A stretch of 64,000 nt of DNA from Hydrogenovibrio kuenenii DSM 12350 (GTDB lineage Bacteria; Pseudomonadota; Gammaproteobacteria; Thiomicrospirales; Thiomicrospiraceae). Positions 10,842 through 17,802 of the stretch are shown here, piece by piece. The notes under the pieces were generated by a model. It ran no database searches. It was not told the origin of the DNA and saw only the letters and a program-made list of their open reading frames with translations. The position numbers and the translations under genes were made by a program. Position 1 is the stretch's first letter. Each line of letters begins with the position of its first letter. The DNA lies in assembly GCF_000526715.1 (NCBI RefSeq), contig NZ_JAGP01000001.1:248001-312000 (forward strand), read 5' to 3'.

Positions 10842-11546
10842 ATGGCTAAAAAAGAAAACTGGATCGCCCCTTCTATTTTGTCAGCAGACTTTGCGCAATT
10901 GGGTAAAGATGTAAAAGACGTTATCACAGCAGGTGCGGATGTTGTTCATTTTGATGTAATGGATAACCACTATGTACCTAACTTAACGATTGGGCCATTG
11001 GTTTGTGAATCCTTGAAAAACTTCATGGTTCGTGAAGACGTAAAAGCGCCAATCGATGTGCATTTGATGGTGAAGCCAGTTGATCAGTTGATTGGCGATT
11101 TTGCTTCTGCTGGTGCGGATTATATTACTTTCCACCCAGAAGCTTCCGAGCACATTGATCGTTCTTTGCAGTTGATCAAAGGTGAAGGTTGTAAAGCTGG
11201 TTTGGTATTTAACCCAGCAACCCCTTTGAGCTATCTTGAGCATGTGCTAGATAAAATTGATATGATTTTGATTATGTCTGTTAACCCTGGTTTTGGTGGT
11301 CAGGCATTCATCCCTCAAGCACTTGAAAAGTTGAGAGCGGCTCGCAAACTGATTGATGAATCAGGTCGTGATATTCGCTTGGAAATTGATGGTGGTGTTA
11401 AGGTTGAAAACATTGCTGAAGTTGCAGCAGCTGGTTGTGATACGTTTGTATCAGGTTCTGGTATCTTTGGTAAAGCAAATGCTTCTGATGCGAACCGTTA
11501 CGATACAGTGATCGCGCAGATGCGCGAAGAGCTAGCTAAGGCTTAA
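10842..11546 (+). CDS. rpe: Ribulose-phosphate 3-epimerase
   Basis: Interconverts ribulose-5-phosphate and xylulose-5-phosphate in the Calvin and pentose phosphate cycles. A TIM barrel of 234 aa. Visible are [14 protein letters not shown] (first strand and Ser), the metal/catalytic region [45 protein letters not shown] and [11 protein letters not shown] (second catalytic Asp). It begins the rpe-gph-trp series; a terminator separates it from gph. Confidence 0.97.
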
Positions 11547-11623
11547 TTGCGGAGCTCATTGGTAACGCATTAGCTGCATCACCACTGAACTCCTCGTTCA
11601 TACGTTTGAGCGAGAAATGAGAT

Positions 11624-11646
11624 ACGCCAGCCTTGCTGGCGTTTTT
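11624..11646 (+). terminator. Intrinsic terminator after rpe
   Basis: Perfect 8-bp stem ACGCCAGC / GCTGGCGT around CTT, then TTTT. Confidence 0.88.
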
Positions 11647-11761
11647 GCCATTTAAAACAACAAAGAATTTGCAAGGCAGAAGCTTCTGTCAGGTGAGCTG
11701 CACAATTGAATAAGCAGTCACAATCGCTAGGTTGTAAACCTAATTAAGAATTGGAAAAAAG

Positions 11762-12448
11762 ATGTCGATTGAAAAAATTAAACCCGGATTTGTATTGATT
11801 GATTTGGATGGTACGCTTATCGATAGCGTGCCGGACTTGGCTTACTGTGTTGATGAAATGATGAAGCAACTTGGTATGCCTGTTCGCGGTGAAGAAGCGG
11901 TTAGAGACTGGGTTGGTAATGGCGTTCAGCGTTTGACTGAAAGAGCCTTGATTAACTCAGTTGAAGGGATGCCTGATCAAAACTTGATGGATAAAGCATA
12001 TCCAATTTTCCTAGAATTGTATAAAGAAAATACTTCACAACGTTCATGTGTTTATGAAGGTGTTGTTGAAGGTATCGAATGGATGAAGGCTCAGGGTTAC
12101 CGTGTTGCTTGCGTTACCAATAAGGCTGAAGCCTTTACTGTTCCATTGCTAAAAGATAAAGGTCTTTATGATCATTTTGAAGTGGTCGTTTCCGGCGATA
12201 CTTGTGCTGAGAAAAAACCACACCCAATGCCGTTATTATTCGCGGCAGAACAATTAGGCGTTGCGCCTGAAAATGCTTTGATGATCGGCGATTCTCGCTC
12301 TGATGTTAAAGCGGCTAGAGCAGCAGGATTCCATATTTTCTGTATGACTTATGGGTACAATCATGGTGAAGATATCCGTGACTACACCCCTGATGCAGTG
12401 ATGGATTCCTTTATGGAATTGCCGAACTATTTAGAAGCGGCAAACTGA
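11762..12448 (+). CDS. gph: Phosphoglycolate phosphatase
   Basis: HAD-superfamily phosphatase removing 2-phosphoglycolate, the toxic product of the Rubisco oxygenase reaction. The 228-aa protein shows HAD motif I (DLDGTLIDS, nucleophile first Asp), the helical cap, motif II/III region (CVTNK ... EKKPHP) and motif IV (MIGDSRSDVKAA). Its place after rpe and before trpE is common in Proteobacteria; in an autotroph it belongs functionally with the Calvin-cycle genes upstream. Confidence 0.94.
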   Translation: MSIEKIKPGFVLIDLDGTLIDSVPDLAYCVDEMMKQLGMPVRGEEAVRDWVGNGVQRLTERALINSVEGMPDQNLMDKAYPIFLELYKENTSQRSCVYEGVVEGIEWMKAQGYRVACVTNKAEAFTVPLLKDKGLYDHFEVVVSGDTCAEKKPHPMPLLFAAEQLGVAPENALMIGDSRSDVKAARAAGFHIFCMTYGYNHGEDIRDYTPDAVMDSFMELPNYLEAAN

Positions 12449-12480
12449 TTCAAAATTAACTAAAAGGAAGCTTGTTAGAT

Positions 12481-12606
12481 ATGTCTTTTATAAAAGCGCT
12501 TTTCATTGTTGTGACCAAACCCCTATGGTGCTCAGTACAGGGTTTGTGGCAACTTTGGCGACTTAAAAGGTATGAAAGACAGCAGACAAAACTTCGAAAC
12601 AGTTAA
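12481..12606 (+). CDS. 41-aa Trp-rich mini-ORF before trpE (possible leader peptide)
   Basis: An uninterrupted 41-codon ORF fills most of the gph-trpE gap. An AGGAAG ribosome site lies 11 bases before its ATG. Its peptide has a hydrophobic start (FIKALFIVV), then three Trp residues within eleven positions (PLWCSVQGLWQLW), and a basic tail (RLKRYERQQTKLRNS). Three Trp in 41 residues is far above average. An inverted repeat, CAAACCC / GGGTTTG (12516-12522 and 12540-12546), brackets the first Trp codon and ends just before the second. Stop and trpE start are only 15 bases apart. It could be a trp leader peptide or simply a small membrane protein; no classical terminator follows. Confidence 0.5.
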   Translation: MSFIKALFIVVTKPLWCSVQGLWQLWRLKRYERQQTKLRNS

Positions 12607-12621
12607 TTAAGAGATCACACA

Positions 12622-14127
12622 ATGAGCAATTCACATTTTAGCCGCTTGGCTAACCAAGGCTACAAAACCACTCCGGTCATGCATACCATGCTGTCCGATT
12701 ATGAAACCCCATTAAGTGTTTACCACAAAGTGGCAAACCAGCCACAGAGCTACTTGTTTGAGTCGGTTCAAGGCGGAGATAAATGGGGTCGTTATTCTAT
12801 TATCGGGCTGCCCTGCTCAAAACGCTTGGTCGTTAAGGGGCAGCAAATCACCTTACTTGATGGCGATGACATTTTAGAGCAGCAAGTGTCGGATGACCCT
12901 TTGGCATGGATCGAAGCTTTTCAAAATCGTTTTAATGTTTATCCTGAAGCGGGCATGCCTGCATTCAGCGGTGGCTTGGTTGGCTATTTCGGTTATGACG
13001 CTGTGCGTTATATGGAAACAAAGCTCAAGAATTCCGTGCCAGAGCGTGATGATATTGGCGCACCGGATATTGTCTTGCTTGTGTCCGAAGAAGTGGTTGT
13101 GTTCGATAATTTGAGCGGGCAGCTTCATATTATTGTTCATGCAGACCTATCTAAAGCCGATGCGGAAGCCAAAGCGCAAGTGCGAATTACTGAAATAGCC
13201 GACCTTATTCGTACGCCTATGCCAGTGCCTAGCGAACCAGAACCTTCCGAGTTGCTTGGCGAACAAGACTTTCATTCGAGCTTCGGTGAAGAAGCGTTTA
13301 AGCAAGCTGTTGCCAGTATCAAAGAATACATCCTTGCAGGTGATGCGATGCAGATCGTTCTTTCACAGCAGATGTCGGTTGATTTTGAGCATGAACCCTT
13401 AGATTTATACCGCGCATTACGCCACTTAAACCCATCACCTTACATGTTCTTTGTGGATTTGGGTGAATTACAAATCGTTGGTTCGTCGCCTGAAATTCTG
13501 GTGCGTCTAGAAGACAATCAAGTCACAGTGCGGCCTATTGCTGGGACACGTCGTCGAGGTACAACACCTGAAAAAGATCAGGCGTTGGAAGCCGATTTAT
13601 TGTCAGATCCAAAAGAGCTGGCTGAGCATTTGATGCTGATTGATTTGGGTCGAAATGATGTCGGCCGCATTGCACAAGTGGGTAGTGTTGAGTTAACCGA
13701 AAAGATGATTGTCGAGCGTTATTCTCATGTCATGCATATCGTTTCCAATGTAAATGGTGATCTGAAACCAGGTATGAGCCCGATGGATGTGTTGCGAGCA
13801 ACCTTCCCAGCGGGCACGGTTTCTGGTGCACCGAAGATTCGCGCAATGGAAATTATCGATGAGCTGGAACCGGTTAAGCGCGGTGTTTATGCCGGCGCAG
13901 TGGGGTATCTCGGATGGCATGGCAATATGGATACTGCGATTGCCATTCGTACTGCGGTCATTAAGGATAAGAAGTTATTCGTGCAGGCAGGCGCCGGTAT
14001 TGTGGCTGACTCTGTGCCTCAGTCAGAGTGGGATGAAACCATGAATAAAGGACGTGCAATTTTTAAAGCCGTCGAGTTTGTTCAAAATGGTTTGAAAGCA
14101 ACCAACCCTGATGCTGGGCATCGTTAG
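12622..14127 (+). CDS. trpE: Anthranilate synthase component I
   Basis: Chorismate plus ammonia to anthranilate, the first step of tryptophan synthesis, with TrpG supplying ammonia. The 501-aa length is typical. The N-terminal [18 protein letters not shown] with YLFESVQGG is the tryptophan feedback-site region. The C-terminal chorismate-binding domain shows [53 protein letters not shown] and [19 protein letters not shown]. It is followed by trpG (18-nt gap), trpD and trpC. No terminator lies between gph and trpE. Confidence 0.97.
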
Positions 14128-17413: not shown

Positions 17414-17551
17414 AACTTCCTTTGGTTCAATTAATAAAAATGCTCGAGTATTATAATTAAAGGAGTTTTTACCTAGTTTTAAGTTGAACTAAATTTGTTT
17501 ATGCGCGACAAAAAGCATTCTTATGGCGTGAGGTAGTCGCTTCTATGTTTT

Positions 17552-17690
17552 ACAGAACCCCCCAAGGTTTAACTGAAGGGGGCTGAAAGAAAAATTCTTA
17601 AGCTTCACGGTAAAAATAGTGCTTGTGATATGGGCGAGCTAGCCTTTGTTCATCTGAATTGTTATTAATCAAGTCATCCGTATTTATTCC
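17552..17690 (+). ncRNA. Structured leader element upstream of trpB (copy A)
   Basis: The trpB upstream region shares a ~140-nt element with the speD leader. Both begin with ACAGAA and then a hairpin (here CCCCC...GGGGG enclosing GGT-TTA-ACT). GAAAGAAAAAT and a TCACG...A-rich segment with TCAC/GTGA pairing follow. The 3' part (from CTAGCCTTTG to TTAATCA, 33 nt) differs at one base between copies, then TCATCCGTATT. The stem sequences differ between copies while pairing is kept, as expected for a structured RNA. It matches no riboswitch class I recognise. The strand is inferred from the downstream genes. The flanking gap (17414-17551 and 17691-17802) shows nothing else definite. Confidence 0.5.
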
Positions 17691-17802
17691 AACTTTTTCT
17701 TGTTAATTCCACTCTAAAAAATCTCTAGCAGTCTGTTTTTATTCTGTGTATCCTTTTAAAACGCTTAGTAAAAGTGATTTGATATTCAAGAGGAGATAAC
17801 AG

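Follow-up and report, generated by a model that had tools for sequence, protein, structure and literature searches.

On the forward strand of the window, by which we mean the whole 64,000-nucleotide stretch of Hydrogenovibrio kuenenii DNA analysed here, a small ORF (positions 12481–12606) lies between gph, encoding phosphoglycolate phosphatase (11762–12448), and trpE, encoding anthranilate synthase component I (12622–14127). gph and trpE score over cut-off with NCBIfam NF009695 (PRK13222.1-2) and TIGR00564, respectively, and the identities of gph, trpE and trpG are backed by Pfam and NCBIfam models; the window also carries ORFs that we take to be trpD and trpC. No leader was seen by eye in the stretch before trpB (17414–17802).

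The sequence of the small ORF reads from an ATG at 12481 to a TAA stop at 12604–12606 and encodes the 41-residue peptide MSFIKALFIVVTKPLWCSVQGLWQLWRLKRYERQQTKLRNS. A putative Shine-Dalgarno-like AAGGA (12464–12468, forward strand) lies 12 nt from the ATG. A preliminary description of the locus had called the ORF a Trp-rich reading frame directly before trpE, with a stop 15 bases from that gene, and the sequence bears this out: codons 16 (12526–12528), 23 (12547–12549) and 26 (12556–12558) encode Trp, and the stop ends at 12606, 15 nt from the trpE ATG at 12622. At an assumed background of 1.3%, the binomial probability of three Trp among 41 residues is about 0.016. The helix reported to bracket the first Trp codon and to end at the second is likewise present (12516–12546, forward strand). 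Specifically, CAAACCC (12516–12522) and GGGTTTG (12540–12546) form a 7-bp helix around the Trp16 codon, with the 3′ arm stopping directly before the Trp23 codon. As had also been stated, no terminator follows the ORF: an intrinsic-terminator scan of the forward strand from the small ORF to trpE returns no site. Furthermore, Rfam covariance models give no match in positions 11000–14000 at E values up to 1.

Conservation and predicted product of the small ORF

In a profile search of 62 genomes of the order, 39 have a homologue of the small ORF (E 3.5e-15 or better), and a 40th has a 16-residue match only (E 0.004). By genus, 9 of 11 genomes from the window's own genus and 30 of 32 from a second one have a homologue, as against none of 19 from the five other genera of the order. 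The genera with the small ORF at the gph-trpE junction are Hydrogenovibrio and Thiomicrorhabdus; the junction was read in 54 loci of the family, and in the five genera lacking the ORF the gaps read are 0–28 nt. Extending the profile search to the class yields matches in 4 of 369 genomes, two of them within the family and two spurious on inspection: the weak matches in genomes G362 and G067 do not lie near trpE but in frames that run through unrelated genes, and were rejected. Searches of the order and class genomes thus reveal no homologue beyond the two genera.

Three residues are invariant in all 38 aligned homologues, namely Pro14 (codon 12520–12522), Cys17 (12529–12531) and Gly21 (12541–12543), and alignment column 13 is Phe in 36 of them. 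Purifying selection is evident from pN being lower than pS in 241 of 246 usable pairs of the 38 homologues, although the pairs are not independent; close pairs have a pN of 0.03–0.06 against a pS of 0.2–0.5. Judged by these comparisons, the small ORF is a genuine gene and more than a chance reading frame. It is missing from some relatives that have trpE, indicating that it is not essential to trpE. A tree of Gph (51 rows), used to place gain and loss, contains five changes of presence and many weak branches, and we therefore make no claim on the origin of the ORF.

AlphaFold2 predicts a single helix spanning residues 2–40 (mean pLDDT 80, pTM 0.38), a model informative on little beyond the helix. 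The peptide is basic, with a net charge of +7 in the window and +1 to +9 in the family, and has an amphipathic stretch. A mean hydropathy above 1.6 over 19 residues is the usual threshold for a transmembrane segment. This value is 1.49 in the window and exceeds 1.6 in 9 of 38 homologues, so an amphipathic peripheral helix is favoured over a transmembrane protein. The preliminary description had offered a small membrane protein as its second reading; purifying selection supports an independent protein, whereas a transmembrane location is not supported by hydropathy. Pfam, NCBIfam and the PDB hold no convincing relative, and we attribute a PDB profile match (E 0.27) and a match of one family member to a Pfam DUF (0.015) to chance.

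The stop codon overlaps the trpE start in 22 of 38 homologues and, by eye, lies 2 nt before trpE in one more (genome G053); in others it is up to 107 nt away. The overlap, the helix and the basic amphipathic character together lead us to read the product as a small protein whose synthesis accompanies that of TrpE. We consider it quite probable that a small conserved gene directly before trpE encodes a basic, amphipathic, single-helix peptide that is made together with TrpE and acts in trans. Translation of the two would often be coupled through the overlapping stop and start, and the peptide would most likely rest on the surface of the membrane or on a co-produced partner, the nearest candidate being anthranilate synthase. 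The Trp codons of the ORF would have no part in tryptophan sensing. We can only infer a function in trans, because no homologue was found outside the two genera and no domain matches.

The small ORF has its ribosome site and start codon enclosed by an inverted repeat of about 20 bp in 15 Thiomicrorhabdus-type genomes, with the 3′ arm inside the codons for the conserved ALLLEIFR. Thirty genomes of this type have the ORF, and the 15 rows were picked from among them because the element is visible there; genome G045, in which it is absent, was left out. Among 285 cells, 90.9% pair, and six pairs have changed on both sides. Six such pairs were reached in 1 of 500 shuffles, and the count of cells changed on both sides in 0 of 500; sliding the partners by one column lowers the pairing to 49–55%. 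The element may be a hairpin in the RNA or an operator in the DNA, and its covariation at the small ORF's own start suggests that this ORF is itself controlled. We rejected the Thiomicrorhabdus box as a TrpR-operator-like site, because inspection by eye shows conservation of just one of its halves. Separately, Thiomicrorhabdus-type loci (for example L040, L044, L045 and L048) carry terminator-like, AGGCCT-centred palindromes after gph.

Tryptophan codons and RNA folding

The number of Trp residues varies widely among the 38 homologues, counting near-identical rows: ten have none, fourteen have one, seven have two, three have three, one has six and three have seven. The columns of the three window Trp residues (alignment columns 26, 33 and 36) hold Trp in 15, 7 and 14 of the 38 homologues, respectively, and mostly Ile, Phe, Tyr, Leu, Arg or Thr in the others. 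No conserved run of Trp codons of the trpL type is found in the small-ORF family. Within the second genus, two groups are rich in Trp, up to 7 of 40 residues, as expected of a sensor. Loci L064, L065, L062 and L070 have 6 or 7 Trp in 40–56 residues and include Trp-Arg-Trp-Trp.

The helix around the Trp16 codon is weak. With the 16 nt before the Trp column paired against the 36 nt after it, the z score relative to composition-matched shuffles is −0.9 in the window and −1.7 and −2.3 in two close relatives; a six-pair core is confined to these three sequences, and beyond the two relatives the helix form is lost. Its complementarity derives partly from the protein, since the CCC of the 5′ arm is the invariant Pro14 codon and two G of the 3′ arm belong to the invariant Gly21 codon. 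Across most relatives in the two genera, the gph-trpE gap keeps the ORF, the Trp codons vary and the helix is limited to the two close relatives.

Pairing between the Trp region and the trpE start was not detected. The stretch before the first-Trp column, scored against the last 50 nt before trpE, gives z below −2 in none of 34 homologues, a set without G053 (trpE partly aligned) and G095, L101 and L123 (absent from the first gap table); over a comparable stretch, 34 of 53 Arg-Trp leaders from other Gammaproteobacteria fall below that value. In the window, the stretches before Trp16, Trp23 and Trp26 give z scores of 0.2, 1.2 and 0.9 with the trpE ribosome site. When the stretch before each Trp codon is scored in the homologues, none pairs with the trpE start region except that before Trp9 of G031 (z −3.3). 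The region around the trpE start of the window (12560–12660) is unstructured (z +1.56). The longer stretch 12449–12660 forms a somewhat more stable fold than its shuffles (z −2.48), through helices that join the gph-ORF spacer with the ORF end and helices within the ORF, and its sequence is common to only two close relatives.

According to the preliminary description, a ribosome waiting at the Trp codons would refold the RNA near the trpE start; the pairing scores and the unstructured start region speak against this. Its proposal of a Trp leader acting on trpE translation fares no better, given the ten homologues without Trp, a helix that is not kept and the lack of pairing with the trpE start. 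That description had set beforehand, as evidence against its leader reading, relatives that keep the protein with Trp replaced. Such relatives exist, and we reject that reading for the window.

A probable Arg-Trp leader at the same junction in other Gammaproteobacteria

Outside the family, 29 of 39 gph-trpE gaps contain a short ORF ending in Arg-Trp, defined as having this pair no more than 8 residues from the stop; 200 shuffles yield 0.64 such gaps on average and 3 at most, and the reverse complement yields none. The 39 gaps are those among loci L112–L172 with gph beside trpE and a gap of at least 60 nt, L123 and L142 being omitted as family members. In a second genome sample, 33 of 45 gaps contain such an ORF under a looser rule, which admitted a few likely chance frames (L173, L231); 53 of 60 regions were used, trpE not being located in seven, and 45 of them have a gap of at least 45 nt. 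Pooling both samples under the strict rule, with identical gaps counted once, leaves 53 distinct leaders, with examples at L131, L164 and L187 among L113–L172 and L174–L228. As a separate observation, eight loci (L127, L140, L144, L148, L165, L184, L192 and L206) contain an ORF of 42–46 codons that begins with MQFTG or MYFTG, has Arg-Trp in mid-ORF and stops 11 nt inside trpE.

The Arg codon is CGA, giving CGA-TGG, in 50 of the 53 distinct leaders. Their median length is 17 codons, and their stop lies a median of 54 nt before trpE (IQR 51–56). The 40 nt through the Arg codon pair with the stop-to-trpE stretch at z below −2 in 34 of 53 leaders; with a partner from a different locus, the figure is 4 of 53. 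Pairing extends to a median of 4 nt before the trpE start and thus covers the trpE ribosome site. Under tryptophan shortage, a ribosome stalled at the Trp codon would keep the 5′ arm off this site. In sequence, the Arg-Trp leader looks like a translational trp attenuator and is likely a new leader class. An Rfam scan of 14 loci, nine of them with an Arg-Trp leader, gave no match.

Earlier literature includes comparative work on trp attenuators and on trpE attenuation in Pseudomonas. A literature search whose coverage of the older work on trp attenuators and Pseudomonas trpE was thin found no description of the Arg-Trp leader or the small protein, and we provisionally regard an Arg-Trp leader before trpE as undescribed. 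The translational tryptophan control before trpE that the preliminary description had supposed is well supported at the same junction in other Gammaproteobacteria, but not in the window's genus.

Alternative readings and comparison with known systems

Could the small ORF nevertheless encode a Trp-sensing leader peptide that acts on trpE translation, perhaps only in the window's genus? The three Trp codons are suggestive, all 10 aligned homologues of that genus retain Trp16, and an Arg-Trp leader occupies the same gap in other Gammaproteobacteria. Moreover, TrpR was rejected as the regulator because no TrpR scores over cut-off in the 33 family genomes searched, which leaves trpE control unexplained. 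We nonetheless hold this reading to be quite improbable: Trp occurs just once or twice in 7 of the 10 genus homologues, no pairing with the trpE start is seen, and the window ORF has neither Arg-Trp near its stop nor the spacing of about 54 nt. In several relatives, furthermore, the stop overlaps trpE, so that stalling would be expected to lower trpE translation. The overlap, found in the 22 homologues, would suit a spacer ORF that is kept only for translational coupling to trpE and whose peptide is idle. Such a spacer is made very improbable by the invariant residues, by the purifying selection seen at the amino-acid level and by the homologues whose stops lie as far as 107 nt from trpE.

A further possibility is that the class-wide Arg-Trp leader is the ancestor of the ORF, which then lost its sensing function while its peptide acquired a role in trans. 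The two share the gph-trpE junction, and Arg-Trp occurs in eight Thiomicrorhabdus-type ORFs (seven by rule and G031 by eye), five of which use CGA-TGG, the codon pair that predominates in the leaders, and five of which stop 40–45 nt before trpE. However, the family profile matches no Arg-Trp leader in 690 gap translations (best E 2.4), and no long helix precedes the Trp codons of those ORFs, bar Trp9 of G031, and we judge this descent unlikely. Also unlikely, in our estimate, is a broader scenario in which a seemingly undescribed CGA-TGG translational Trp attenuator spans the Gammaproteobacteria and, in Hydrogenovibrio and Thiomicrorhabdus, has turned into a conserved protein that regulates or partners TrpE, with a start-codon hairpin in one genus.

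Under the preferred reading, that of a small protein produced along with TrpE, a plausible but incorrect regulatory annotation as a Trp leader is dropped from the window's trpE. A well-studied biosynthetic gene also gains, next to it, a small-protein family that has no entry in the databases searched. The class-wide Arg-Trp leader, if true, would explain tryptophan sensing at trpE in many Gammaproteobacteria.

In the attenuator of Escherichia coli trpL, a short ORF with Trp codons precedes trpE, and to this extent the window ORF resembles it. Unlike trpL, however, the window ORF has no tandem Trp codons, no terminator and no Rfam match, its stop is 15 nt from trpE, and its Trp residues are replaced in relatives. 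With the Arg-Trp leaders it has in common the gph-trpE junction and a short ORF with Trp, but it bears no sequence similarity to them and lacks their marks, namely the Arg-Trp pair, the spacing of about 54 nt (here 15 nt) and the helix over the trpE ribosome site. As described in PMC7298713, peTrpL of Sinorhizobium meliloti is the 14-residue leader of a transcription attenuator and shows that a peptide encoded directly before trpE can act in trans. The window ORF likewise encodes a peptide immediately 5′ of trpE, yet, unlike peTrpL, this peptide has 41 residues, is conserved in sequence and is accompanied by no attenuator. The same source names SpoVM and AcrZ, small single-helix bacterial proteins; although no sequence relation to them was seen in Pfam, NCBIfam or the PDB, the predicted product of the window ORF is, like them, short and helix-forming.
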